From the IMG/VR virus record IMGVR_UViG_3300042326_001265, positions 1-20,789 of that record: a DNA stretch of 20,789 nt. The stretch is one strand, 5' to 3'. The notes beneath the pieces were generated by a model. It saw only the letters and a list, made by a program, of their open reading frames with translations, searched no databases and had not been told where the DNA came from. Each line of letters begins with the position of its first letter. The stretch's first letter is position 1. The translations under genes and the position numbers were made by a program. Source of the DNA: a virus. Positions 1,192 to 13,300 of this stretch are shown here, one piece after another.

Positions 1192-1199
1192 TATAAATA
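1192..1199 (+). promoter_or_regulatory. T4-type late promoter (TATAAATA)
   Basis: A second perfect TATAAATA, 9 nt after the zinc finger gene. A start near 1205 would produce an RNA covering the 23S-like segment and ending at the hairpin at 1324-1350, before the next gene begins. The promoter therefore seems dedicated to a non-coding RNA. Confidence 0.65.
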
Positions 1200-1237
1200 G
1201 AGGTGGTTGGAGGGATTTGAATACCGGGGATCGATTA

Positions 1238-1315
1238 GGAGACAGTGCCGCGAACACTGGAAACCATTGATTACGCTATTCATGCGCTTGAGGAATTTCG
1301 CTACCTTTCGACCGT
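1238..1315 (-). other. 23S rRNA-like segment (after helix 69, H71 arm deleted)
   Basis: Read on the minus strand, 1315 to 1291 matches 23 of 25 bases of the universal 23S segment around E. coli 1919-1943, including AAGGTAGCGAAATTCCT as an unbroken 17-nt match. The next rRNA arm (helix 71) is replaced by CAA (1290-1288). Then 1285-1270 matches 14 of 16 bases of the GCACGAATGGCGTAAT stretch. After a longer linker with a small hairpin, CTGTCTCC (1245-1238) matches again. The blocks are in the same order and orientation as in rRNA. The comparison is from memory of the E. coli sequence. Confidence 0.8.
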
Positions 1316-1323
1316 CAGGGGAG

Positions 1324-1350
1324 CCGGACTCCACAAGAGTCCGGTTCTTT
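1324..1350 (+). terminator. Hairpin terminator
   Basis: An 8-bp GC-rich stem (CCGGACTC 1324-1331 with GAGTCCGG 1337-1344), loop CACAA, followed by TTCTTT. The T-tail is on the plus strand only, supporting plus-strand transcription of the preceding RNA. Confidence 0.7.
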
Positions 1351-1410
1351 ATCTATAAAGGTAGAGGTTCCCGGAGTACTAAATAGTTGTAAATAACAGG
1401 AGTAATGGCA

Positions 1411-1997: not shown

Positions 1998-2669
1998 ATG
2001 TTTAATCATGAGTTTGTGAAAATTGAAAATCTAAAAACAGAAGAAGTAAACGGTAAACGGTTTTATGTAACTCCAGATGGTCATAAGTACCCTTCTGTTA
2101 CGACTATTACCGGTTGGCAAAAAAGAGCATTCTTTGCCGAATGGCGCAAAAAGAATCCAGAAGAATCTCGTAGAGTACTCAGTCGTGGAACCGCATTTCA
2201 TTCAATCATAGAAGATTATTTGATGAATGAAACGGATAAGGTAGAAGAAAAGAAAAAGACAAGACTTGCAGATTATTATATGTTTGCACAAGCAAAACAA
2301 GAACTTGCAAATATCAATAATCTTCGTGCATTAGAAACTGCATTGTGGTCAGATAGATTAAAAATGGCTGGAAGAGTAGATTGTATTGCAGAATACAATG
2401 GCAAATTATCAGTAATAGATTTTAAAACAAGCAAAGCAATTAAAGACGAGAATGATATTCTTGAATACTTTATGCAAGCAACAGCATACACAATAATGTT
2501 TCAAGAAAGAACAGGAATACCTGTTCGAAATATAGTAATTATTATGTCTTGTGAAGATGGTTCTGTAAAGGTATATGAAAAGAACCCGATTAATTATGTT
2601 GTTGATTTAAAAAATGCTATAGACACATTCTATAAAGATAACAAAAATGAGTCATTTATTTCCTGTTGA
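1998..2669 (+). CDS. PD-(D/E)XK exonuclease, RecB/MGME1-like
   Basis: A 223-residue protein with the RecB-type nuclease layout. GTAFH lies at 64-68, the metal-binding core is AGRVD (D128) followed by IDFKTSK (D141, K143), and Q160-x3-Y164 is the family's Q-motif. This set is typical of the small single-domain nucleases related to mitochondrial MGME1 found in marine T4-like phages, which act on single-stranded DNA ends. A role in phage recombination or host DNA degradation is inferred. It overlaps the first glycosyl-cluster gene by 23 nt, so it is co-translated with genes of a quite different role. Confidence 0.82.
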   Translation: MFNHEFVKIENLKTEEVNGKRFYVTPDGHKYPSVTTITGWQKRAFFAEWRKKNPEESRRVLSRGTAFHSIIEDYLMNETDKVEEKKKTRLADYYMFAQAKQELANINNLRALETALWSDRLKMAGRVDCIAEYNGKLSVIDFKTSKAIKDENDILEYFMQATAYTIMFQERTGIPVRNIVIIMSCEDGSVKVYEKNPINYVVDLKNAIDTFYKDNKNESFISC

Positions 2670-3537
2670 TACCTGTGTTGTTGCGTGTTCTGGACCCTCA
2701 TTAAACAAAGTTGATGTTTTTTCTTTGGGTTTACCAGTTTGCGCTATAAGTACGGCGATACGATCAATACCTAATCCAAATTATTGGTTCTTGGCAGATA
2801 ATCTAAATCAAATGCATGGACCCGAGGGACAATCTGCTTGGGAAAATCCCGCCGTAATTAAGGTAATACCCTCCAGAAATAATCAAAGTGGAAACAATAT
2901 TGTTTCTCATCCATATAGGGAAGGCAAAGAACAAAACAAATATTATGAAAGATTGCTTTTTGATCCGCATGAACCTTTACTCAGAGGACCTCATAAAACT
3001 TTGACTTTTGCAATACAATGGTTGCATGTAAGTGGAGTGAAAAACATAATATTTGCGGGAAATGATTTAGAAGCAAACACTTTCGAAGAAAAATATTCTT
3101 ACAAATTAAGCGAATACGATAATAAAAAAAAGCACAACTTTAAAAAAACTTTAGATCAAATTAAAAATGCATTAGTTGCTTGGTATCCGATTGCACAATC
3201 AAAAGGATATAACTGGTATTCGTGGGAATGTGGTGAAATATTCGAAAAGTTTGTACCAGTTTTTGATAAATCTATATTGAACTCTGTAAAAAAAAATAAT
3301 GTAGTAACACCGGTTGTAATACCAGATTTGACAGATTTACAAAAAAAGATGTTAGAACAAAACGAAGTTCCGGTGAAACCTCAGAAAAAAATACAAACAA
3401 TAGAAGAATCTAGTTTTATTAAAAGTGCTAATCTATTTACAGAGTTATTAAATCAAAACAAACAAAAACAAAAAACAAATAAAATAAACGATCATATGAA
3501 TTTGTATTTTGACATGCTTCATAAACGCAAAAAATGA
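2647..3537 (+). CDS. Putative sialyltransferase-like or DUF115-type protein
   Basis: A 296-residue protein. The start (CVVACSGPSL, 10-19) resembles the Rossmann-like opening of GT42 sialyltransferases and of DUF115/MptE-like proteins (hydrophobic strand then G-x-GPSL, here SGPSL). A second family-like element is the helix and strand TFAIQWLHVSGVKNIIFAGNDLE (roughly 118-141), like the 'G-x-x-x-I-x-L-x-G-x-D' element of those families. The last 90 residues are Lys/Gln-rich and probably disordered. The ATG lies inside the nuclease gene (23-nt overlap) and the stop overlaps the next ATG by 4 nt. It opens a run of sugar-transfer genes, which supports a glycan role. The acceptor and donor are unknown. 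Confidence 0.55.
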   Translation: MSHLFPVDTCVVACSGPSLNKVDVFSLGLPVCAISTAIRSIPNPNYWFLADNLNQMHGPEGQSAWENPAVIKVIPSRNNQSGNNIVSHPYREGKEQNKYYERLLFDPHEPLLRGPHKTLTFAIQWLHVSGVKNIIFAGNDLEANTFEEKYSYKLSEYDNKKKHNFKKTLDQIKNALVAWYPIAQSKGYNWYSWECGEIFEKFVPVFDKSILNSVKKNNVVTPVVIPDLTDLQKKMLEQNEVPVKPQKKIQTIEESSFIKSANLFTELLNQNKQKQKTNKINDHMNLYFDMLHKRKK

Positions 3538-4160
3538 ATAAAGTAACATTTGTATCTTTTTATACAAATACTGGAATATATCCTAAACTAATTAAAGATT
3601 TAGAAAAAAGTTTAGAAAAGTATTCTTTGAATTATGTAATTCAACTTCAAGAAGATATGGGTTCTTGGGTTAAAAATTGTGCATTCAAGGCACAATTTAT
3701 GAAATCTATGCTGATGCAAACACCAAAGAACGAATGCATAGTATGGATCGACAGCGACGCGGAAATCATGAAATATCCTGATTTGTTTTTATTAGGTGAA
3801 CAAGAATTTATGATTCGGGGAGAACCAGGCGGTAAAAGTAAAGTACCGGCTGGTAGAGAACGAATTCATTTACCTAATAATTGGCCACAATCGATTTCTC
3901 CATGTTGGTTTAATTCTGGTACTATTTTTATGCGAGTATGTGAAAATAGTATAAAATTGTGCGATAGATGGATTCAATTAAAAAACGAAAAACCAACGGA
4001 TTGGGATCAGTGGACACTTCAACAGGCTTGGTGTGACATACAACCCAAGACGGAGTTTTTACCACAATCTTATTGTCAGATAGATAGATTGCACGGTCGT
4101 CAAGGTGCAGTAATTTTACATCGTTTAGCATCAGTAGAACAGAGAGTGAATAGACAATGA
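3534..4160 (+). CDS. GT-A fold glycosyltransferase (paralogue A)
   Basis: A 208-residue protein with the GT-A nucleotide-sugar transferase pattern. It starts with a hydrophobic strand (VTFVSFYT), has the SWVKNCAFKA motif at 44-53 and a DxD metal site in WIDSDAEI (D73, D75). It then has a 'C-W-F-N-S-G-T-I-F' strand and a WDQWTLQQAW helix before FLPQSYCQ. The same motifs in the same order occur in the next gene, so the two are tandem paralogues. It resembles the nucleotide-diphospho-sugar transferase group near GT77. ATGA overlaps link it to both neighbours. The sugar is not predictable. Confidence 0.75.
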   Translation: MNKVTFVSFYTNTGIYPKLIKDLEKSLEKYSLNYVIQLQEDMGSWVKNCAFKAQFMKSMLMQTPKNECIVWIDSDAEIMKYPDLFLLGEQEFMIRGEPGGKSKVPAGRERIHLPNNWPQSISPCWFNSGTIFMRVCENSIKLCDRWIQLKNEKPTDWDQWTLQQAWCDIQPKTEFLPQSYCQIDRLHGRQGAVILHRLASVEQRVNRQ

Positions 4161-4813
4161 TATCCGTAATTACATTTTATACACCCGAATATAATGAAGA
4201 AGCACTGGAATGGCGTAAAAGTTGTCATGCTCATATACAAAGACCAATTGATGCAACACATCAAGAAAACGTAGATTATAAGCAATTTCCATTTAAGTCT
4301 TATGATATGCCAAGTAAAAAATCTTGGGTTCATAATTGTACTATGAAAGCAGAAGTAATATTAAAAGCAATACATGAATTAAATTCTGGTATTGTTTGGA
4401 CTGACGCCGATGCAAGATTCAAAGAATATCCAAGATTATTTGAACAGTTGGAAGAATATGATTTTGCTTGTTACTGGATTCCAAATGTTTGGAATCAACC
4501 AAAAAATGCACATTTGAAGCCTTGGACTCGCGGCAACGAAGCACTTGCCGGAGGCACTTTGTTTTTTAATAAAACACAAATAGCAATAGATTTGATAGAA
4601 GCATGGAAAAAACAAAGTGAAGCAAATCCGACTGTATGGGAACAACAAAGTCTTCAAAAAGTATGGGAAGAGTTTGATAATAAAGGATTACGAACATTTA
4701 ATTTTCCACAGTCATATTGCAAAGTATTTGATTGTAAATGGTTTGAACCCGAACAAACTATTGTAATAGAACACATGCAAGCAAGTAGGCGGTTGAAAGG
4801 TAAAGTAAAATGA
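4157..4813 (+). CDS. GT-A fold glycosyltransferase (paralogue B)
   Basis: A 218-residue protein sharing its layout with the preceding gene. The shared elements are SWVHNCTMKA at 56-65, the DxD site in VWTDADARF (D83, D85), the acceptor-side strand LAGGTLFFN, the helix WEQQSLQKVW and FPQSYCKVF near the end. The shared motifs show an old duplication with much divergence. 4-nt overlaps with the genes before and after point to coupled translation. It is expected to transfer a sugar from an NDP-sugar, with specificity unknown. Confidence 0.75.
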   Translation: MISVITFYTPEYNEEALEWRKSCHAHIQRPIDATHQENVDYKQFPFKSYDMPSKKSWVHNCTMKAEVILKAIHELNSGIVWTDADARFKEYPRLFEQLEEYDFACYWIPNVWNQPKNAHLKPWTRGNEALAGGTLFFNKTQIAIDLIEAWKKQSEANPTVWEQQSLQKVWEEFDNKGLRTFNFPQSYCKVFDCKWFEPEQTIVIEHMQASRRLKGKVK

Positions 4814-5490
4814 TTATAGATTTAAAAACAATAAAAAAAGTTTACATTAATTTGGATAAAGATGTTAATCGACAACAAAGATTTGAAAATACTTTGCGCG
4901 AATTAAATTACACAAACTATGAAAGATTTTCCGCCAGATTGTTACCAAAAATACGAGATTTTAATCATGGTTGCAGTCAGAGTCATTTTGATTTAATGAC
5001 TGAACACAAAGACAATCTACCCTTATTTGTTATGGAAGATGATGCAAAACAAACAATTTGGTATAATGAATATGTGAATGATGGTAAGATTGTTATTCCG
5101 GATGATGCAGATGCAATTTATTTAGGGTTTTCTACCGCAGGATCTTGGAAAGAACTTGGTGTAGATTTTTATGTAGAACCACTAAATGAAAAATGGATAA
5201 GATTGAAACATTGTTTAGGAACACACGCAATTTTGTTTTTGAATGATAAGATAAATACCTTTATAGAAAACTCTAAAAGTACTATACAACGAAAAGTACC
5301 ATTAGATATAGGATATGCAAAAGAAGTTTTGCCTAATTTAAAAATATATGCGCCAACAAAATCATTATTTTATCAGTGGGACAAGTGTTGGATAACTACA
5401 AATACTATAGTTGACGCGCACAATAAAACTTGGACATCATACAAAGAAGATGGTTCTATCAATTTTATACGAACATATACGAATGGATAA
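4810..5490 (+). CDS. Glycosyltransferase family 25-like
   Basis: A 226-residue protein with the GT25 signature. The N-terminal YINLDKDVNRQQRF (12-25) corresponds to the family's 'x-N-L-D-x-x-x-x-R-x-x-x' opening. GCSQSH at 54-59 matches the GCxxSH motif, and LFVMEDDA at 72-79 holds the acidic metal/donor site. GTHAILF follows later. Bacterial GT25 enzymes (for example LgtB-type) often add beta-1,4-galactose to lipopolysaccharide. This makes galactose transfer a reasonable guess here, but not one the sequence proves. The ATG overlaps the previous stop by 4 nt. Confidence 0.8.
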   Translation: MIIDLKTIKKVYINLDKDVNRQQRFENTLRELNYTNYERFSARLLPKIRDFNHGCSQSHFDLMTEHKDNLPLFVMEDDAKQTIWYNEYVNDGKIVIPDDADAIYLGFSTAGSWKELGVDFYVEPLNEKWIRLKHCLGTHAILFLNDKINTFIENSKSTIQRKVPLDIGYAKEVLPNLKIYAPTKSLFYQWDKCWITTNTIVDAHNKTWTSYKEDGSINFIRTYTNG

Positions 5491-5492
5491 AA

Positions 5493-6317
5493 ATGTTAGA
5501 TTTTAATGATTGTACTTTTTTAATACCTTATATGAAAGATTCTAATGATCGTTCATTTAATTTACATATCATATTAAGATACTTAAATAATATTATGAAA
5601 ACTAATATCATTATAGTCGAACAAAATAAAAAACATTATACTACCAATGAATTTAATTTGTATAACAATTTAAATATTCAACATTTAATTTATGAAAATA
5701 GCGGCAATTTTCACAAAACCAAATTATACAATATAGGTCTTAGTAAAATTAATACGGAAATCACAGTCTGTTTAGATAGTGATGTAATGATCCCCAAAGA
5801 ACAATTATTGCAAGCAAAAAATTGTTTATTAAATGGCATGGATTACGTTTTTCCTTTTAGTGAAAATTATATTGAAATATCTAAGATTTTAACAAAAAGC
5901 AGAAATGATTTTTTAGCATCTTTTAATTTTGGTCAATATTTACTAAATGTAAAAGAATATCAAAAAACTTATGATACAGTATCTTCAAAAGAAAGACATC
6001 CTGGTTTAATACGCGGGTGTCCACCGGGAGGATGTTTGTTTGTTAAAACTAAAGTATATGTTTCTATTGGTATGGAAAACGAAGAGTTTTTTGGTTATGC
6101 ACCAGAAGACGCGGAAAGAAAACATAGATTAAATATTTTTGGATACAAGACACAAACAATTCCCGGTCACTTATATCATTTAGATCACAGTATAGTACAT
6201 AGACGAGTATCAAATAATGTGGGTAGATATTTGTTTGAAAAACTCAAATCATTTGATCCGCAACAACTTAAAAAATATTACGATAATTTAAATTATAAAC
6301 AGAAATACAATTTATGA
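5493..6317 (+). CDS. Glycosyltransferase, galactosyltransferase (7C)-like
   Basis: A 274-residue protein. The start at 5493 is preferred to an earlier in-frame ATG at 5430, because it falls 2 nt after the previous stop and the earlier start would overlap the GT25 gene by 61 nt. The N-terminal half is a GT-A fold with DxD in CLDSDVMIP (D95, D97). The C-terminal part has the Glyco_transf_7C pattern: PPGGCLFVKTKVY (178-190), then a Gly/Phe-rich turn and APEDAERKHRL (203-213). That pattern occurs in beta-galactosyl- and N-acetylgalactosaminyl-transferases and in chondroitin synthase. Hexosyl transfer to a phage or host glycan is likely. It overlaps the next gene by 4 nt. Confidence 0.78.
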   Translation: MLDFNDCTFLIPYMKDSNDRSFNLHIILRYLNNIMKTNIIIVEQNKKHYTTNEFNLYNNLNIQHLIYENSGNFHKTKLYNIGLSKINTEITVCLDSDVMIPKEQLLQAKNCLLNGMDYVFPFSENYIEISKILTKSRNDFLASFNFGQYLLNVKEYQKTYDTVSSKERHPGLIRGCPPGGCLFVKTKVYVSIGMENEEFFGYAPEDAERKHRLNIFGYKTQTIPGHLYHLDHSIVHRRVSNNVGRYLFEKLKSFDPQQLKKYYDNLNYKQKYNL

Positions 6318-7087
6318 TTACAGTTAATTTAATGGGAAGATTGGGTAATAATTTGTTTCAAATTGCTGCTGGATTGTCTCTTGCACATCGTCATGAAACA
6401 GATTGTTATTACATTAATCATTTTGATTATCTAAATGCTTTTGAATTAAAAGATATAAAACAAACAACAAATTCCTGTAATTCTACTTTTTATGAGAAAA
6501 CATTTAATTTTAACGAGAATTTTTTAAAACTTGGTAATAATATTCATTTACATGGTTATTTTCAAAGCTATAAGTATTTTTTAAATGCTGAAGAAAAGAT
6601 TAAAAGTAATTTTACATTTAAACAATTTGTTAAAGATAATGTATGGAAAAATGGATATTCGTACTTAGAACAAGAAAATAATGTTACAGCAATACATGTT
6701 AGAAGAACCGATTATTTAAGCATACAACATGTACATCCTATTTGTTCTATGGAATACTATACTGATAGTCTTTTGCGTATTGGAAAAACCGATAAAGTAT
6801 TAGTATTTTCTGATGATGTTGTTTGGTGTAGACAAAACTTTGATTTAAATTATGAAATAGTCGATATGGATTTACACTGTTCAATGTATATGATGAGTAA
6901 AGTAAAAAATATAATCATAGCAAATAGCACATTTAGTTGGTGGTCTGCTTGGTTAAATAATACACCAAATAAACAAGTATATGCACCAAAACAATGGTTT
7001 GGTAATACCTTACCATATAAAAATGCTGATATTAATTTAGAAACATGCACTAAAGATTTATTTTTGCCAGAATGGAATGTTTTATGA
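6314..7087 (+). CDS. Alpha-1,2-fucosyltransferase (GT11)
   Basis: A 257-residue protein with all main GT11 motifs: GRLGNNLFQ at 8-16, HGYFQSYKYF at 80-89, the GDP-fucose-binding HVRRTDY at 128-134, FSDD at 165-168 and IANSTFSWWSAW at 202-213. GT11 enzymes transfer fucose from GDP-fucose to galactose, as in bacterial O-antigens that mimic H antigen. Length is slightly below the usual 280-300. It overlaps the next gene, a fucosyltransferase of another family, by 4 nt. No GDP-fucose synthesis genes (gmd, fcl) occur in the window, so the donor must come from the host or from elsewhere in the phage genome. Confidence 0.92.
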   Translation: MITVNLMGRLGNNLFQIAAGLSLAHRHETDCYYINHFDYLNAFELKDIKQTTNSCNSTFYEKTFNFNENFLKLGNNIHLHGYFQSYKYFLNAEEKIKSNFTFKQFVKDNVWKNGYSYLEQENNVTAIHVRRTDYLSIQHVHPICSMEYYTDSLLRIGKTDKVLVFSDDVVWCRQNFDLNYEIVDMDLHCSMYMMSKVKNIIIANSTFSWWSAWLNNTPNKQVYAPKQWFGNTLPYKNADINLETCTKDLFLPEWNVL

Positions 7088-7830
7088 GAGTATTCGTGAA
7101 TTGGTCGTATAATTTAATACCAAAACAAAATCATACATGGATTTCGTCTGATTATAATTCTTGTGATATTGTTGTTGGTATCAATAATTCAAAATCATAC
7201 AATAAACCATTTGTAAATTGGTTATATGAACCTTCCTCAATAATAGAAAGACATTATTTGAGTTTAAAAAATAGCAATAATAGAGTAGCAACGCATTTAA
7301 CTCAAAAGCAATTTAATAATCAAATATCAATTCCTCCTTGCTTTCCGTCTTGGATTTCTGTAGAAGAATCCAGAATTTATGATAAAACTAAATTAATTAG
7401 CATGATTGCTTCTACAAAAAATATGTGTAATGGTCATTCTTATAGACAACAAGTTGCGTCTAAAAATGAAAATATTTTAGATTTGTACGGATTAAATCGC
7501 CCAAATCAATTAAATTCCAAAATAGATGGTCTTAAGGATTATATGTTTTCGGTGGCTATGGAAAATATAATAAGTGATACGTATTATACAGAAAAAATAT
7601 TAGATTGTTTTTTGACCGGAACTATACCAATTTATTGGGGTACAAGTAAAATTTGTGATATTTTTGATAAAAATGGAATATTGTTTTTAAATGCCGATGG
7701 TTCTATACCAGAAATAAATAAAGATGTGTATATGTCTAAAATAGATTCAGTTAAAAACAACTTTGAAATTGCCAAACAGTATAATTACACAAGTTCTGAC
7801 GGGATTCAGTTTATAACGGAAAAATTATGA
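7084..7830 (+). CDS. Alpha-1,3/4-fucosyltransferase-like (GT10)
   Basis: A 248-residue protein. The ATG at 7084 forms an ATGA overlap with the preceding stop and is preferred over the in-frame ATG at 7072. The C-terminal half carries the GT10 signature: KDYMFSVAMEN (151-161), YYTEKI (167-172) and TGTIPIYWG (178-186), corresponding to the family's F-x-x-x-x-EN...Y-x-TEK...G-x-x-P-x-x-x-G. GT10 enzymes add alpha-1,3 or 1,4 fucose to N-acetylglucosamine or glucose in Lewis-type structures. The N-terminal acceptor domain is short. Being next to a GT11 gene suggests a doubly fucosylated product. Confidence 0.88.
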   Translation: MRVFVNWSYNLIPKQNHTWISSDYNSCDIVVGINNSKSYNKPFVNWLYEPSSIIERHYLSLKNSNNRVATHLTQKQFNNQISIPPCFPSWISVEESRIYDKTKLISMIASTKNMCNGHSYRQQVASKNENILDLYGLNRPNQLNSKIDGLKDYMFSVAMENIISDTYYTEKILDCFLTGTIPIYWGTSKICDIFDKNGILFLNADGSIPEINKDVYMSKIDSVKNNFEIAKQYNYTSSDGIQFITEKL

Positions 7831-8501
7831 ATAAAATAATTTCATATTCTCTCTATGGTACAAATAAAAGATACACCATAAACGCACTCGTTAATTTAGA
7901 ATTGTGTAAAAAATTCTATCCAGATTGGAAAGTGTATTTACATTATGATACTAGTGTACCCTCCGTTATTATTAAAGAATTACAAAAATTTGATAATTGT
8001 ATTTTAATAGAAAAAACTGGTATTCATCATGGACGAATGTGGTGGAGACTTTTGGGTTATGACTATGGTGATATATTCATTTCTAGAGACATAGACAGTC
8101 ATGTAACAGAAAGAGAAGTTGATGCTGTAGAAGAATGGTTAAATTCTAGCAAACATTTGCATATAATGCGAGATCATTCTGGTCATAATAAAAAAATTCA
8201 AGGTGGTATGTTTGGTATTAAAAAATCAGAAAGATTGTTATCAATGAAAGATATCATTGGTAATAGAATTTATTTGCATCAAAATTATGGCGATGATGAA
8301 GAATTTTTATCAACAACGATATATTCTATGTTTTTAGGAGATATGATGGTACACGATTCTCATCCAAGACCATGGGAATTGGATAAAACAAACGACTGGA
8401 GAAAACCTATTCTTGGAGAGCAATTTATAGGTACACCACAATTTGTTGATTGGCCTTGGATTAATAAAGATTTAGTTGAAAAATATAAAGAGTTATATTA
8501 A
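7827..8501 (+). CDS. Putative GT-A glycosyltransferase (RDxDS type)
   Basis: A 224-residue protein of a family common in large phages and viruses. It opens with ISYSLYGTNKRYTINALVN and YPDWKVYLHYD, and has the acidic site SRDIDSHVTERE at about 86-97. This is followed by LHIMRDHSGH and a Gly-rich IQGGMFGIK. The RDxDS acidic motif in a GT-A-like frame suggests nucleotide-sugar binding. I know no member with a proven activity. It overlaps the GT10 gene by 4 nt and is separated from the next gene by 1 nt, so it is part of the same coupled operon. Confidence 0.65.
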   Translation: MNKIISYSLYGTNKRYTINALVNLELCKKFYPDWKVYLHYDTSVPSVIIKELQKFDNCILIEKTGIHHGRMWWRLLGYDYGDIFISRDIDSHVTEREVDAVEEWLNSSKHLHIMRDHSGHNKKIQGGMFGIKKSERLLSMKDIIGNRIYLHQNYGDDEEFLSTTIYSMFLGDMMVHDSHPRPWELDKTNDWRKPILGEQFIGTPQFVDWPWINKDLVEKYKELY

Positions 8502-8502
8502 T

Positions 8503-9258
8503 ATGAAAATAGAAAAAGTCATACATGCATCAAATGATGAGCCTTTTTATTTGGATTTTTGGCCAATAGTATCAAAAATTTGGAAATTAAAATTTAATAT
8601 ACAACCAATTTTATTGTATTTTGGGGAAAATAAAATAGATGAAACATATGGACAAGTTATAAAAATGAAATCTGTGAAAGGAATTCCTATAAACACACAA
8701 TGTCAAGTTTCAAGATATTGGATTCCAGCGACCGAACCAAACACAACATGGATGACATCTGATATAGATATGTTTCCTATTTCCAAAGAATATTTTGTAA
8801 AACAATTAGAAAATATACCAGAAGATAAATTTGTTAATATAAATTGCAACAAACGTGATATATATCCAAATATACATTATTCTTGTTGCTACAATATAGC
8901 AAAGGGAAAAACATTTTCTGAAATATTAAAACTTGCACCCGATTGGGTTGATTTTATTAATACTAAATTTTGGCAAAATAATAATCACGATCATAAACCA
9001 GATGGATTAGATAAAGTTTGTAGTCATTGGGGAGCAGATGAAATGTGGTCCAGTTTAATGATAAATAATTTTTATGATCAAGACAAAATCGTTCGACTTT
9101 ATCGAAACGGGAACCAATCTTATAAAAGAATAGACAGATTGAATTGGAATTGGAATGATAATAAATTTTCAGAATATATTGACTGTCATTCGATTAGACC
9201 ATATGATAAACATAAAAAATCAATTGATTCTTTAGTTAAAAAAATAATAGAGGCATAA
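8503..9258 (+). CDS. Putative GT-A glycosyltransferase
   Basis: A 251-residue protein. The ATG at 8503, 1 nt after the previous stop, is chosen over an in-frame ATG at 8476 that would overlap by 26 nt. The likely active site is TSDIDMFPIS (D87, D89 of the DxD), followed by a Cys-rich strand (IHYSCCYNIAKG) and SHWGADEMW, which may place the acceptor or a catalytic base. The Trp/Asn-rich C-terminus ends in IDCHSIRPYDKHKK. The fold is inferred from the DxD and its flanking strands only. It lies in the middle of the glycosyl cluster. Confidence 0.6.
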   Translation: MKIEKVIHASNDEPFYLDFWPIVSKIWKLKFNIQPILLYFGENKIDETYGQVIKMKSVKGIPINTQCQVSRYWIPATEPNTTWMTSDIDMFPISKEYFVKQLENIPEDKFVNINCNKRDIYPNIHYSCCYNIAKGKTFSEILKLAPDWVDFINTKFWQNNNHDHKPDGLDKVCSHWGADEMWSSLMINNFYDQDKIVRLYRNGNQSYKRIDRLNWNWNDNKFSEYIDCHSIRPYDKHKKSIDSLVKKIIEA

Positions 9259-9259
9259 C

Positions 9260-9997
9260 ATGAATTTAGGTTTCGTTACTTTTGTTAATAGAGATCCCAA
9301 ATATCTAGAATTGGCAAATATATTAGTAGAATCTGTATTAAGATTCACAAATTTACCAATAGAAGTTAATGGTATTAATTTTGATTATAAGCACAAATCG
9401 GATAGAGTTATATCTAAAAAATTAAATGTAAATCCAGAAAATTTTGCTACAATATGCTTTTCTAAAATTGAAGCGTATATGACAACTAATTTTGATTATG
9501 CTGTAGGTATGGATGCAGATTGCATTGTTTTACCCGAAATAATTAACATATTTAATAAACAAAATTATTTAAAAATGGGAAATTACATTCTTCCTCCAAT
9601 ACATCCACAAGATCCAAAAGATTGTGAAGCATTGTGTAATTTTTTTGGAACTCGGCAAACGCAACCATATATTCATGCTGATATATTTTTATTAGGCCAA
9701 AAATCAAAATCATTTTTACAAGAAGTGTACGATAATTGTTATGCAGCATATCGAAATAAAATTAGAATAGGTAATGTAGATGAAAGTGTTTTAAATGTTA
9801 CTTTATGGAAACATAAATTAACAGAACATTATTTACCATTATATGATCCATATTATGAAATATGGTTAGATTCAACGGAATCAAAAATTCCAACAAACAT
9901 TCCAAAAGATATGTTTAAACGAGAAAATTATATGATAGTGCATGGATGTAAAGAACCAGAAATTGCTAAAGTTATATTAGATAGTATAACTAGATAA
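9260..9997 (+). CDS. Putative GT-A glycosyltransferase (GT8-like)
   Basis: A 245-residue protein. It opens with LGFVTFVNRDPKYLELANILVES, typical of GT8-like enzymes in which a strand is followed by a helix aligning with NDP-sugar binding. AVGMDADCIVLP (D85, D87) is the DxD site. The segment YIHADIFLLGQKS and the helix with NVDESVLNVTLW match the later GT8 pattern (acceptor strand, then D/E-Q/S-containing helix). The C-terminal MIVHGCK could be the family's terminal H-x-x-G-x-x-K metal/phosphate motif. It lies 1 nt after the previous gene. Sugar specificity is unknown. Confidence 0.68.
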   Translation: MNLGFVTFVNRDPKYLELANILVESVLRFTNLPIEVNGINFDYKHKSDRVISKKLNVNPENFATICFSKIEAYMTTNFDYAVGMDADCIVLPEIINIFNKQNYLKMGNYILPPIHPQDPKDCEALCNFFGTRQTQPYIHADIFLLGQKSKSFLQEVYDNCYAAYRNKIRIGNVDESVLNVTLWKHKLTEHYLPLYDPYYEIWLDSTESKIPTNIPKDMFKRENYMIVHGCKEPEIAKVILDSITR

Positions 9998-10006
9998 GGA
10001 TTATTA

Positions 10007-10648
10007 ATGAATCAAACTTTTTTAGATGAAATAGTAAATAAAAAAGAAGCAGAATTTTTTTTGCACGAAGTTTCTAATTGGGACAGTCATCGTCCACTTT
10101 TATATCTAGCTTTAGAATTAACAAAAAATTCAAATGCCCCTATACTAGAATTAGGTTGTGGTGATGGAAGTACACCATACTTACATAACTACATTCAAAC
10201 AGATAAAAGAAATTTAGTTAGTTTTGATACAAAAGAATTTTGGTTAAATAAATTTATACATTTTAAATCAGAAAAACATAATTTTGTTTATTTACCAGAC
10301 AATTATGGTTTTAATAAAAACACACAAGAATGGTATGATAAATCTCCAGAAATTATAAATTGGTTGGATGATGTAACTTCTAATAATATATCTGTTTGTT
10401 TGGTTGATCACGCTTGCGGTGAACGGCGACACAGTGATTTAAAAAGAATACACAAAAAATGCGATATAATGATAATTCATGATTCGGAGCCTCAAGCAAC
10501 AGGTTATATGATGAATAAAGTATGGCCATTATTTAAATACGTTATACATTTTAAACAATTTGGAGCATGGACAACTATGGTTAGCAATAGACACGATGTA
10601 ACTAAATTTGATAAAATGAAAATAAAAGAATTTGAGTTAAATGTATGA
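10007..10648 (+). CDS. Class I SAM-dependent methyltransferase
   Basis: A 213-residue protein. Motif I is ILELGCGDGST at 46-56, the SAM-binding glycine loop. An acidic residue after the second strand (SFDTKEFW) and VCLVDHACGERRHSDLKRI (strand 4 region) fit the Methyltransf_24-like group often found beside sugar-transfer genes. DIMIIHDSE supplies the next strand. The likely substrate is a sugar or glycan hydroxyl, judged only from the context. It sits 9 nt after the glycosyltransferase gene and overlaps the next methyltransferase by 4 nt. Confidence 0.75.
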   Translation: MNQTFLDEIVNKKEAEFFLHEVSNWDSHRPLLYLALELTKNSNAPILELGCGDGSTPYLHNYIQTDKRNLVSFDTKEFWLNKFIHFKSEKHNFVYLPDNYGFNKNTQEWYDKSPEIINWLDDVTSNNISVCLVDHACGERRHSDLKRIHKKCDIMIIHDSEPQATGYMMNKVWPLFKYVIHFKQFGAWTTMVSNRHDVTKFDKMKIKEFELNV

Positions 10649-11169
10649 TAGTTAAATACCCCAAAAATGGGTCTAGCCCAGATTTTGATTGGAGGTATTT
10701 AGATACATCTAATGATTTAATTTGTCCTTGGTATACAGTTGATACTTTATTGTGGTTAGATTCTATTCATTTAAGTGACAAATCTGTTTTTGAATATGGT
10801 TGCGGATTGTCTTCTTATTGGTGGCAAAAGAAAACAAAAAAATGGAACGGTGTAGATGACAGTAGAATTTGGGCAGAACCTTGCGGTTGTACAATAAAAA
10901 CAGATTTAACAAATTATGTTGAAAGTTGCACAGATACTTATGATATTGTAGTAGTCGATGGCAGTTGGAGAAATGAATGCATAAAACACGCATTAACAAA
11001 AATAAATAAAAATGGCTATCTAATTGTAGATAATTGGAATCAAGCATCAGTTGATATGCCAGAAAGTTTTTGGAAACCATCAACCGAATTGCTATTTAAT
11101 TACAAAAAGTGCATTTATAAAGAACCAAAACATGAAGATTGGAAAACCGCAGTATTTTTTATAGAATAA
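10645..11169 (+). CDS. Small SAM methyltransferase-like protein
   Basis: A 174-residue protein with a compact Rossmann core: VFEYGCGLSSYWW (48-60) as motif I, GVDDS as the acidic strand, YDIVVVDGSWRNECI (99-113) and NGYLIVDNWNQ as later strands. The motif order is that of a class I methyltransferase, but with 174 residues it lacks much of a substrate domain. It could be a minimal sugar O-methyltransferase or could act with the preceding methyltransferase, whose gene it overlaps by 4 nt. The pair does not look like a recent duplication. Confidence 0.65.
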   Translation: MIVKYPKNGSSPDFDWRYLDTSNDLICPWYTVDTLLWLDSIHLSDKSVFEYGCGLSSYWWQKKTKKWNGVDDSRIWAEPCGCTIKTDLTNYVESCTDTYDIVVVDGSWRNECIKHALTKINKNGYLIVDNWNQASVDMPESFWKPSTELLFNYKKCIYKEPKHEDWKTAVFFIE

Positions 11170-11185
11170 ATGAAAGAAAAACTTT

Positions 11186-12094
11186 ATGAAAATTGTAGTA
11201 ACGGGTGGTTGTGGATTTATAGGATCAAATCTTGTAGATGAATTGATCAGACAAGAACATAATGTTATTGTTATTGATGATCTTTCTTCTGATGCTCATG
11301 ATCGGTTTTATTTTAATCCAAAGGCAAGTTATTATCATTACAATGTTGTAAATGATAATCTTGTAAATGGTGTATTTGAACGACATGAACCGGATTATGC
11401 GTTTCATTTAGCAGCCGAAGCACGTATACAAAATTGTATATTAGATCCAAGTAGAGCGTTGGATATTAACACACTTGGTACTCAAAACATATTAAGTGCA
11501 GCAAAAAAAGTAAACACCAAGAGAGTGATTTTTTCTAGCACATCTGCAATATATGGTTTATCTTCTTTAGCAACACAAAAAGAAACAGATCAACCTGATT
11601 GTTTAAATGCTTATTCATATTCTAAATGGTTTTCTGAAGGATTGTGCAAAATGTATTCTAATTTATATGATTTAGATACCGTTTGTTTTAGATACTTTAA
11701 TGTGTATGGTCCAAGACAACCAAAAAGAGGTTCGTATGCTCCAGTAATTGGAGTATTCTCCAGACAAAAAAAAGCAAATCAACTAATGACAATTGTAGGA
11801 GATGGTTTACAAACCAGAGATTATATTCATGTATCTGATGTGGTTGCTGCAAATATTGCTGCTATGAATCACTTAGATAAATTGAATGCTAAAGTGATGA
11901 ATGTTGGTACTGGTACATATTATTCTGTATTAGAACTTGCAAAAATGATAGGTGGCGAGTATACTTACATCGCACCGCGTTCTGGTGAAGCGCGACATAC
12001 TTGTGCAAACATTCAAACAATCAAAGAGACTTTAAATTGGCAACCAACCAAATCTCTTAAGAACTATATGGAGAACAGAGAATATGATACTTGA
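11186..12094 (+). CDS. NAD-dependent nucleotide-sugar epimerase/dehydratase
   Basis: A 302-residue extended short-chain dehydrogenase. TGGCGFIG at 6-13 binds NAD(P). HLAAEA follows near 74-79. The catalytic set is SSTSA (117-121) with Y143-x3-K147. RYFNVYGPRQ, a Gly-rich GDGLQTRDYIHVSD and NVGTGTYYS are the nucleotide-sugar-binding motifs of the GalE/WbpP group. It would interconvert UDP-hexoses, for example glucose and galactose, to feed the transferases upstream; which sugar is not determined. The ATG at 11186 has only a weak AG-rich leader, 16 nt after the previous stop. It overlaps the gp33-like gene by 11 nt. Confidence 0.88.
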   Translation: MKIVVTGGCGFIGSNLVDELIRQEHNVIVIDDLSSDAHDRFYFNPKASYYHYNVVNDNLVNGVFERHEPDYAFHLAAEARIQNCILDPSRALDINTLGTQNILSAAKKVNTKRVIFSSTSAIYGLSSLATQKETDQPDCLNAYSYSKWFSEGLCKMYSNLYDLDTVCFRYFNVYGPRQPKRGSYAPVIGVFSRQKKANQLMTIVGDGLQTRDYIHVSDVVAANIAAMNHLDKLNAKVMNVGTGTYYSVLELAKMIGGEYTYIAPRSGEARHTCANIQTIKETLNWQPTKSLKNYMENREYDT

Positions 12095-12305
12095 ATCTGG
12101 TGAATTAAATATTCAAAATGAAATTGAAAAGATAATTAAAAAGAAGAATTGTTCTTATATGGATGCAGTTTTACAAATTTGTGAATTGCACAATATAGAT
12201 CCTTCTTATATTGCCAAGCATTTGTCAAAACCAATTGTTGAAAAGATTAAAGCCGAAGCACAGTCATTAAACTTCCTGCCCAAATCTTCTCGACTTCCTA
12301 TTTGA
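12084..12305 (+). CDS. 33: gp33-like late transcription coactivator
   Basis: A 73-residue protein. The core CSYMDAVLQICELHNIDP and the ending LNFLPKSSRLPI resemble the small gp33 proteins of marine T4-like phages, and the neighbour is gp32, as gp33 is near gp32 in T4. gp33 joins gp55 in host RNA polymerase and links late promoters to the gp45 sliding clamp. It is shorter than T4 gp33 (112 residues). The presence of TATAAATA promoters in the window fits a gp55/gp33 system. The assignment rests on remembered family features and synteny; a different small polymerase-binding protein is possible. Confidence 0.6.
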   Translation: MILESGELNIQNEIEKIIKKKNCSYMDAVLQICELHNIDPSYIAKHLSKPIVEKIKAEAQSLNFLPKSSRLPI

Positions 12306-12379: not shown

Positions 12380-13300
12380 ATGTCATTTAAAGATTTAAAG
12401 AAGAAGTCCACCGATCTGTCAAAGATCACCCAAGAGTTGGATAAGTTGAACAAGGGTGGAGCAGAGTCGTATAAGGACGACCGGTTCTGGAAGCCTGAAC
12501 TGGATCAAGCATCAAATGGTTTTGCAGTAATTCGATTCCTGCCGGTCGTTGACGGCGAGGATGTTCCTTGGGCGCGCGTGTTTAGTCACGGGTTCCAAGG
12601 CAAGGGTGGATGGTTCATTGAGAACTGCCCAACGACTCTGGGTAAGAAGTGCCCAGTGTGTGAAGCAAACAATGAACTTTGGAACAGCGGTATTGAGGAC
12701 GACAAGACTGTTGCGCGTGATCGTAAGCGCAAGTTGAGTTATGTTGCTAATGTGTATGTTGTTTCAGATCCAAAGCATCCCGAGAATGAGGGTAAGGTGT
12801 TTCTTTTCAAGTTCGGTAAGAAGATCTTTGATAAGATCATGGAGAAGATTCAACCCGAATTCCCAGATGATTCTCCTGTCAATGTATTTGATTTTTGGCA
12901 AGGTGCAAACTTTAAGTTGAAGATTCGCAAGGTTGCGGGTTATATCAACTACGACAAGAGTGAATTTGAAGAGCCAACTCCGCTTCTTGGTGGTGATGAT
13001 GCAAAGTTGGAAGCACTTTGGAAGAAGCAGTATGCTCTTAAGGAGTTCACGAATCCTGAGAACTTCAAGTCTTATGACGAACTAAAGTCAAAGATGGAAT
13101 CAGTTCTAAAGGGTGGCACTGAAGGTAAGGCAAAGACTGCTGAGGAAATGGAAGAGATTGAGGATGCAGAACAACGTTTTGGTTCTGGTCCTAAGTCAAA
13201 ACCCGCCCCAAAGATGCCAGAAAAGAAGTCTAAGATGGAAGACGACGGAGAGGAAGAGGATGCTCTTTCCTACTTTGAGAAGTTGGCCAAGGAAGACTAA
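12380..13300 (+). CDS. 32: Single-stranded DNA-binding protein gp32
   Basis: A 306-residue homologue of T4 gp32 (301 residues). N-terminal KKKST (7-11) is the basic (Lys/Arg)3(Ser/Thr)2 motif that mediates cooperative binding. The zinc ligands appear as H70, C83, C91 and C94, close to the H-C-C-C set of T4. A central OB-fold region includes YVANVYVV and FKFGKKIFDKI. The C-terminus is strongly acidic (about 260-306), the tail that contacts replication partners. AAGGA at 12370-12374 is the ribosome-binding site. The gene uses AAG for lysine and C/G-ending codons far more than the glycosyltransferases before it, a sign of strong expression or separate history. It ends before a clear terminator. 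Confidence 0.97.
   Translation: MSFKDLKKKSTDLSKITQELDKLNKGGAESYKDDRFWKPELDQASNGFAVIRFLPVVDGEDVPWARVFSHGFQGKGGWFIENCPTTLGKKCPVCEANNELWNSGIEDDKTVARDRKRKLSYVANVYVVSDPKHPENEGKVFLFKFGKKIFDKIMEKIQPEFPDDSPVNVFDFWQGANFKLKIRKVAGYINYDKSEFEEPTPLLGGDDAKLEALWKKQYALKEFTNPENFKSYDELKSKMESVLKGGTEGKAKTAEEMEEIEDAEQRFGSGPKSKPAPKMPEKKSKMEDDGEEEDALSYFEKLAKED

Follow-up and report, generated by a model that had tools for sequence, protein, structure and literature searches.

Then, what could a T4-like phage build with thirteen consecutive genes of sugar metabolism, and on what would the product be placed? This question is raised by the IMG/VR virus record IMGVR_UViG_3300042326_001265, which is analysed here over its whole length of 20,789 bases (the window) and belongs to a T4-like phage represented by metagenome contigs only. 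In the window, 13 same-strand open reading frames (ORFs; G1-G13) of 174-302 amino acids each occupy positions 2647-12094 (9,448 bp), and they probably encode 10 glycosyltransferases (GTs), two methyltransferases and one nucleotide-sugar epimerase. Here, we suggest that a T4-like clade carries an exchangeable island for glycan assembly, of which this block is one allele, and that its product is most likely placed on a virion protein, a reading to which we give an even chance. The block and its two flanking genes are as follows.

1998..2669, plus strand: PD-(D/E)XK (Cas4/RecB-like) exonuclease (exo), left flank of the island; phrog_298 E = 2.6e-66, PF12705 8e-9
2647..3537, plus strand: G1, Maf/GT42-like glycosyltransferase by predicted fold, SGPSL motif, first gene of the island; PF01973 only at E = 0.035
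3534..4160, plus strand: G2, Nucleotid_trans-type GT-A, DSD motif; PF03407 E = 2e-5, above cut-off
4157..4813, plus strand: G3, Nucleotid_trans-type GT-A, DAD motif; PF03407 E = 4e-7, above cut-off
4810..5490, plus strand: G4, GT25-like glycosyltransferase, EDD motif; phrog_24091 1e-28, phrog_2835 (glucosyltransferase) 3e-7, PF01755 only 0.13
5493..6317, plus strand: G5, GT2/galactosyltransferase-like GT-A, DSD motif; phrog_15655 2.5e-34, phrog_1721 (galactosyl transferase) 1.4e-7
6314..7087, plus strand: G6, GT11 fucosyltransferase family, HxRRxD motif; PF01531 E = 9e-19, over cut-off, phrog_2644 1.6e-49
7084..7830, plus strand: G7, GT10 alpha-fucosyltransferase family; PF00852 E = 5e-8, over cut-off, start at 7084 preferred
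7827..8501, plus strand: G8, GT-A, GT8-like glycosyltransferase by predicted fold, SRDIDS motif; no Pfam match
8503..9258, plus strand: G9, probable GT-A glycosyltransferase, SDIDM motif; from motif and alignment only
9260..9997, plus strand: G10, probable GT-A (Mannosyl_trans3-like), DAD motif; PF11051 E = 0.001, below cut-off
10007..10648, plus strand: G11, probable class I methyltransferase (ELGCGDGST); from motif I and alignment
10645..11169, plus strand: G12, probable class I methyltransferase (FEYGCGLSS); from motif only
11186..12094, plus strand: G13, short-chain dehydrogenase/reductase (SDR) nucleotide-sugar 4-epimerase/dehydratase, right end of the island; PF01370 5e-55, PDB 4zrm 2e-52
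12084..12305, plus strand: gp33 late-transcription coactivator, right flank; PF16805 8e-19, phrog_254

An initial annotation of this DNA had described a one-direction run of 13 genes with seven ATGA overlaps and other gaps of 1-16 nt, placed between a nuclease gene and gp33/gp32, and the ORF coordinates and flank matches bear this out. The 4-nt overlaps of ATGA type join G1/G2, G2/G3, G3/G4, G5/G6, G6/G7, G7/G8 and G11/G12, while the other intergenic gaps within the block are 2, 1, 1, 9 and 16 nt. Note that the G6/G7 overlap requires G7 to start at the ATG at 7084 and not at 7072; the homologous genes in contig L014 have the identical 4-nt overlap, which favours 7084. The block also overlaps its flanking genes on both sides: 23 nt are shared by exo and G1, and 11 nt by G13 and gp33. 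Beyond gp33 lies gp32 (phrog_224, E = 2e-118), and baseplate and tail genes are found downstream of the two. Because a separate contig, L084, carries the same island with 99-100% protein identity and reaches 3 kb further left, the block is not an assembly artefact. When the window was compared with named phages by megablast, the sole match was a 134-nt piece of gp32.

As to the individual enzymes, family matches above cut-off confirm the GT11, the GT10, the two paralogous GT-A enzymes and the epimerase (G6, G7, G2/G3 and G13) of the initial annotation. G6, whose translation contains the HxRRxD motif, scores 68 bits against PF01531 (cut-off 23.9), and GT11 homologues are present in 102 phage records; G7 scores 33.3 bits against PF00852 (cut-off 23.9) and matches the Helicobacter pylori alpha-1,3-fucosyltransferase 2nzw with E = 6.7e-7. 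Judging by their families, both may transfer fucose from GDP-fucose. G2 and G3 are 32% identical to each other. G13 falls in the SDR superfamily (PF01370); its identification as GalE was rejected, since it matches TIGR01179 (galE) with E = 1.6e-49 but reaches 168.5 bits versus an equivalog cut-off of 262.3. The other names stand less firmly. The GT25-like G4 and the supposed Glyco_transf_7C-like G5 are read from Pfam matches below cut-off or from PHROG matches; G5 gives E = 2.8e-4 with PF00535, slightly below cut-off, and its family scans used 5478-6317, that is, 5 codons ahead of the likely start at 5493, the effect of which should be negligible. Three further GT-A enzymes had been proposed, among which G8 has a predicted GT-A fold (pLDDT, the predicted local distance difference test, 74) that matches the GT8 enzymes glycogenin and LgtC with E about 1e-6, the PBCV-1 capsid-glycan enzyme 2p6w also being among its structural matches. 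G9 is recognised by the SDIDM motif, invariant across 5 homologues, and G10 by its PF11051 match below cut-off. The two methyltransferases are likewise read from their motifs, as Pfam scans gave no match for G11 or G12. PDB sequence searches with the G8 and G11 profiles yielded no relevant match, and none of the 13 proteins has a clear transmembrane segment.

How did such a block come to lie between exo and gp33? Among 28 related loci with both genes placed, the gap between them is -4 to 256 nt in 16, 332-2,984 nt in 11, and 9,418 nt in L084, which carries the window's own allele. The two genes are thus adjacent by default in distant relatives, which marks the site as an insertion point with the island inserted between them. 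Unrelated cargo makes up some of the other inserts that T4-like phages carry here. Large minus-strand genes were observed in place of sugar genes between exo and gp33 in L024 and L068, and upstream of gp33 in L096; with such inserts in other T4-like contigs, the exo-gp33 site looks like a hot spot for insertions in general.

The inserted genes differ strikingly among close relatives, and the differences are concentrated in the middle. Contigs with gp33 88-100% identical to that of the window show about ten gene arrangements upstream of gp33 (window/L084/L139; L097/L137; L140/L143/L151/L136; L141/L142; L144; L145; L088; L146; L150; L005/L148), a count that is approximate because several contigs are partial. 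Where the left end is reached, it consists of G1-G2 followed by G3 directly or one gene on, and G3 is kept in nearly all contigs extending to this edge; at the right end, G13 overlaps gp33 in nearly all contigs. The clearest swap is that of L097, in which gp33 and gene g772 are 100%, the dksA-like gene 99% and exo 77% identical to their counterparts in the window. Its 11.6-kb island contains clear orthologues of G1 (56%), G2 (77%), G3 (90%) and G13 (81%) only, with none to G4-G7 between them. In relatives, the middle of the island has, among others, genes for methyltransferases of FkbM and TylF type, for GT25 and GT2 enzymes, for a UDP-galactopyranose mutase and for a DegT aminotransferase. 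Four sister records (L088, L134, L131 and L117) have a full-length GDP-mannose 4,6-dehydratase (474-476 bits), located directly after G2 in those that were mapped, which suggests that deoxyhexose donors are part of the system. Furthermore, in the distant phage L014, with gp33 57% identical, G1-G7 and G9 are 46-77% identical to those of the window, and modules therefore appear to move between lineages. The DksA/TraR-type zinc-finger protein (970-1182) was also seen to be 97-99% identical in several sisters with different islands.

Constant ends and an exchangeable middle are the hallmark layout of a serotype locus. Bacterial capsule and O-antigen loci have conserved ends and swappable middle genes for GTs and modifying enzymes, and this architecture is shared by the island, for which they are an analogue only: the island has a phage location, and no polyprenol-carrier enzyme or flippase was found in it. 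A permissive insertion site could also have gathered miscellaneous independent auxiliary genes with no joint pathway, and the free variation of the middle genes among contigs would fit this, as would the unrelated cargo that other T4-like phages carry there. Nevertheless, nearly all genes identified at the site in the clade encode a GT, a methyltransferase or a sugar-nucleotide enzyme, and random cargo would be less uniform than the tightly coupled genes and conserved ends described above. Consequently, we consider such an explanation improbable.

Then, on what is the glycan placed? The initial annotation had named virion proteins and host surface glycans as alternatives and had not chosen between them. 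The island's first gene may offer a clue. A sialyltransferase-like protein had been listed in the initial annotation. For the predicted fold of G1, the best structural match is the flagellin glycosyltransferase Maf (5mu5, Z 12.8), followed by the GT42 sialyltransferases CstI/CstII (Z 10.8-10.6), with a structural alignment over residues ~6-212 at ~10-13% identity. It should be noted that the model is a moderate one (pLDDT 70.9, built from 5 sequences) and that other Rossmann-like enzymes score Z 9-10. The sequence itself gave no profile match to Maf or GT42; Pfam returned MptE-like at E 0.035, searches of NCBIfam and PDB sequences returned nothing relevant, and no gene of a nonulosonate pathway was seen in the window. 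Homologues of G1 with 44-61% identity lie after exo in sister contigs. Relatives of G1 are absent from 50,697 named phage records, and none of G11 were found in named phages either; a pattern scan of GTDB contigs detected no bacterial homologue of G1, a weak negative given that two short peptide patterns were usable. Maf enzymes are described as performing the O-glycosylation of flagellin in the cytoplasm (PMC11339370, PMC4065374), and a Maf/GT42-like starter thus fits a protein acceptor. In an infected cell, a virion protein would be the obvious one, and virion glycosylation is the subject of a paper by Freeman (2023), as cited in PMC12619734.

The genes that are missing would favour an acceptor in the cytosol. 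No flippase or initiating phosphoglycosyltransferase is matched among the 13 block genes, so that the block does not resemble a Wzx/Wzy-type locus, and neither Wzx (PF01943) nor Bac_transf (PF02397) was found in 16 related records, nearly all of them partial. These absences, together with the lack of membrane proteins, speak against a lipid-carrier pathway; they suggest that the glycan is assembled in the cytosol on an acceptor located there, or else that the phage makes use of the machinery of its host. For the virion-protein reading, the following scheme could be proposed. In the cytosol, the soluble enzymes would draw on nucleotide sugars made by the host and in part by the phage, and the conserved starter set (the Maf/GT42-like G1, then G2 and G3) would probably place the first sugars, a constant starter with a variable middle being suggestive of a constant acceptor with variable outer sugars. 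The middle set (GT25-like, GT2-like, GT11, GT10, GT8-like and other GT-A enzymes and the two methyltransferases) would add and cap the outer residues, and the terminal epimerase G13 would provide a sugar nucleotide. With a phage virion protein as the most likely acceptor, particles would differ in their sugar coat, and exchange of the middle genes would change the coat. The capacity for a complete decorated oligosaccharide, as the initial annotation supposed, is plausible from the predicted gene content, from which we also infer the enzyme specificities, their order of action, the acceptor and any role in recognition or escape. The fuller proposal of a serotype-like locus for phage particles, with cytosolic O-glycosylation of a virion protein by a Maf/GT42-like starter and a swappable outer-sugar module that gives differing coats, is put forward only tentatively.

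Alternatively, the enzymes may extend or cap the lipopolysaccharide (LPS) or capsule of the host during infection, and thereby block superinfection or alter host recognition. GT25-, GT10- and GT8-like enzymes are typical of the LPS outer core, and the LPS core in the inner leaflet is accessible to soluble enzymes. Such a role is also the published reading for pelagimyophages (PMC7029224) and for phage S-SCSM1 (PMC9602691). On the other hand, the island and the 16 related records lack an initiating or flipping enzyme of the two families tested, and the 13 proteins lack clear transmembrane segments. We regard host-surface modification as possible rather than probable, and it stays a strong rival to the modification of virion proteins. 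Several points weigh against the latter. GT25-, GT10- and GT42-type enzymes are well known as builders of host LPS and lipooligosaccharide, the predicted fold of G1 cannot tell a protein acceptor from a glycan acceptor, and host enzymes could provide the lipid carrier and flippase. The assignments of G9-G12 are based on motifs or weak matches, and the conservation of the right end is incomplete, as L150 and L014 have no G13 before gp33. All genome comparisons were made on fragments, and the absences are provisional. In addition, the authors of the pelagimyophage study favour modification of the host O-chain (PMC7029224).

Could the oligosaccharide be attached to DNA instead? The block lies among replication genes, and glycosylated DNA is known in T4-like phages (PMC6024577); a modified base would then carry the oligosaccharide, like the glucosyl- or arabinosyl-hydroxymethylcytosine of T4-like phages. 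A search for PF00303 (the thymidylate synthase/dCMP hydroxymethylase family) found none in 22 related records, which include records of 108, 79, 77 and 73 kb (the window's own genome being incomplete), whereas 9 of 14 control genomes were positive; this speaks against DNA glycosylation by way of a hydroxymethylated base, the usual route. Moreover, no DNA-glycosyltransferase family was matched in the Pfam scans, and GT11, GT10 and Maf-type enzymes are known to act on glycans or proteins. DNA hypermodification is therefore very improbable.

Is the island a recent import, and how might it be expressed? The initial annotation had contrasted its AAA-rich codon use with that of gp32. The block does differ from gp32, but the tail genes share its AAA bias (0.76-1.00) and GC content (0.26-0.37), and gp32 is the outlier: its lysine codons are AAG in 42 of 44 cases and AAA in 2 of 44, and its GC content at third codon positions (window 12380-13300) is 0.49, versus ~0.12-0.25 in most other sizeable genes. 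Consequently, codon use is no sign that the block is foreign, and the composition anomaly as a sign of recent import was ruled out. The 13 ORFs are intact and, where homologues exist, omega is 0.07-0.38, compared with 0.03-0.08 for exo, gp33 and gp32; the block genes are thus constrained and not decaying, most of them being less constrained than the core. An internal promoter or terminator had not been evident by eye, and this holds: 93 promoter-like sites were found inside the block versus 102.5 expected, with no convincing terminator. The signals around the block are listed below.

1379..1385, plus strand: CTAAATA, candidate late-type promoter element 26 nt upstream of gene g1405; conserved in L088, L097, L134, L131 and L117
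12302..12330, plus strand: strong sigma70-like promoter for gp32 (11/12); conserved in L004, L088 and L097
13326..13355, plus strand: intrinsic terminator after gp32, with a 12-bp stem and T run

With no convincing internal terminator, promoter sites at chance level and the conserved CTAAATA upstream, a single transcript from ~1385 through g1405-exo-G1..G13-gp33 is plausible. CTAAATA at 1379 may act as a late-type promoter. If it acts so, its timing would tell against host-surface modification, as exclusion is usually needed early, whereas this candidate element is of late type. The window has two exact copies of the T4-late-type TATAAATA (139 and 1192); both are intergenic, and the island contains none. 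CTAAATA was also noticed at 714, like that at 1379 in an intergenic gap before a gene, and is possibly the clade's variant of the late promoter.

How much of this is already known? With its GT and nucleotide-sugar genes contiguous and on one strand of a T4-like genome, the island joins the glycan/LPS-type clusters of T4-like phages. Prochlorococcus phage P-SSM2 has a one-direction, packed cluster of epimerases, GTs and a methyltransferase (PSSM2_257-271, NC_006883.2) in a T4-like genome, whose epimerase PSSM2_270 is 44% identical to G13; it differs in lying near hli, psbA and tail-fibre genes and not between exo and gp33. The cell-wall/fucose cluster of Synechococcus phage S-SCSM1 (MK867354.2, ~108-121 kb) has GT11, several GTs, methyltransferases and GDP-fucose enzymes in one run, and its GT11 is 36% identical to G6. 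Here, the differences are another genomic site, with exo and gp33 nearly adjacent, and GDP-fucose synthesis within the cluster. Among named phages, pelagiphage HTVC008M has one of the gp32 proteins most similar to that of the window (56%), and the host-recognition cluster of pelagimyophages is also a hypervariable GT-rich island in a T4-like genome; it is located, along with tail fibres, between VrlC and gp14 (PMC7029224), and conserved starter or terminator genes receive no mention in the accessible text. By contrast, the present island sits at the exo-gp33 site beside gp32 and includes no tail fibre. Therefore, glycan gene clusters in marine T4-like phages are already known, while the exo-gp33 site, the swapping between conserved bookends and a G1 without relatives in named phages appear to be new within the sequence collections searched.

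Just upstream of the island there is another element, which may be a stronger and possibly newer finding than the island itself.

~1192-1349, plus strand: candidate phage small RNA of ~150 nt, between the dksA-like gene and g1405
Other copies: L088 5332-5446; L090 9196-9314; L111, L112, L094, L127, L104, L128, L096, L105, L125 and L098

Its parts are TATAAATA (1192), a conserved core (~1270-1315) and a terminator hairpin (~1321-1349). Through AAGGAATTTCGCTACCTTnnGACCGT and ATTACGCYATTCATGC, the core shows complementarity to domain IV of 23S rRNA; the complementary stretch is presumably the H69-H71 region of the Escherichia coli sequence. When IMG/VR was scanned with a pattern, 43 stretches were recovered, among which many were chance matches or genuine 23S, and the element is common to about 12 distinct phage lineages, sometimes with TATAAATA upstream. 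In 8 of 12 lineages, a second 16-nt block complementary to 23S rRNA precedes the core (12-15 of 16 nt, equalled in 0 of 200 shuffles), and this block lay outside the search pattern. A same-strand intrinsic terminator follows the element in 10 of 12. Furthermore, a model that uses nothing but the sequences of the 12 phage elements finds the antisense strand of genuine 23S genes in L126 (E 1.5e-12) and L106 (3.4e-10), and positions 1-1600 of L126 were confirmed as LSU_rRNA_bacteria on the opposite strand; RefSeq 23S records are also matched by a phage copy of the element on the minus strand. No consensus secondary structure was predicted for the element, as would be expected if complementarity and not folding is under selection. 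The element was not found in HTVC008M, S-SCSM1 or P-SSM2, it has no Rfam match in the window, and our literature search found no description of such a 23S-complementary phage RNA. The element is thereby a candidate 23S-antisense-like small RNA. Further upstream, positions 1-58 look like the 3' end of a truncated tRNA; tRNA-Pro(TGG) comes next (60-135), and tRNA genes were also seen upstream of the corresponding region in sister contig L134.

It has long been known that marine T4-like phages carry GT clusters, but where the product ends up, host or particle, is an open question. Near-identical phages that differ mainly in one bookended sugar island constitute a natural experiment on this point. 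If the islands give particles different glycans, phage 'serotypes' would be real, and their effect on adsorption and defence would be directly testable.

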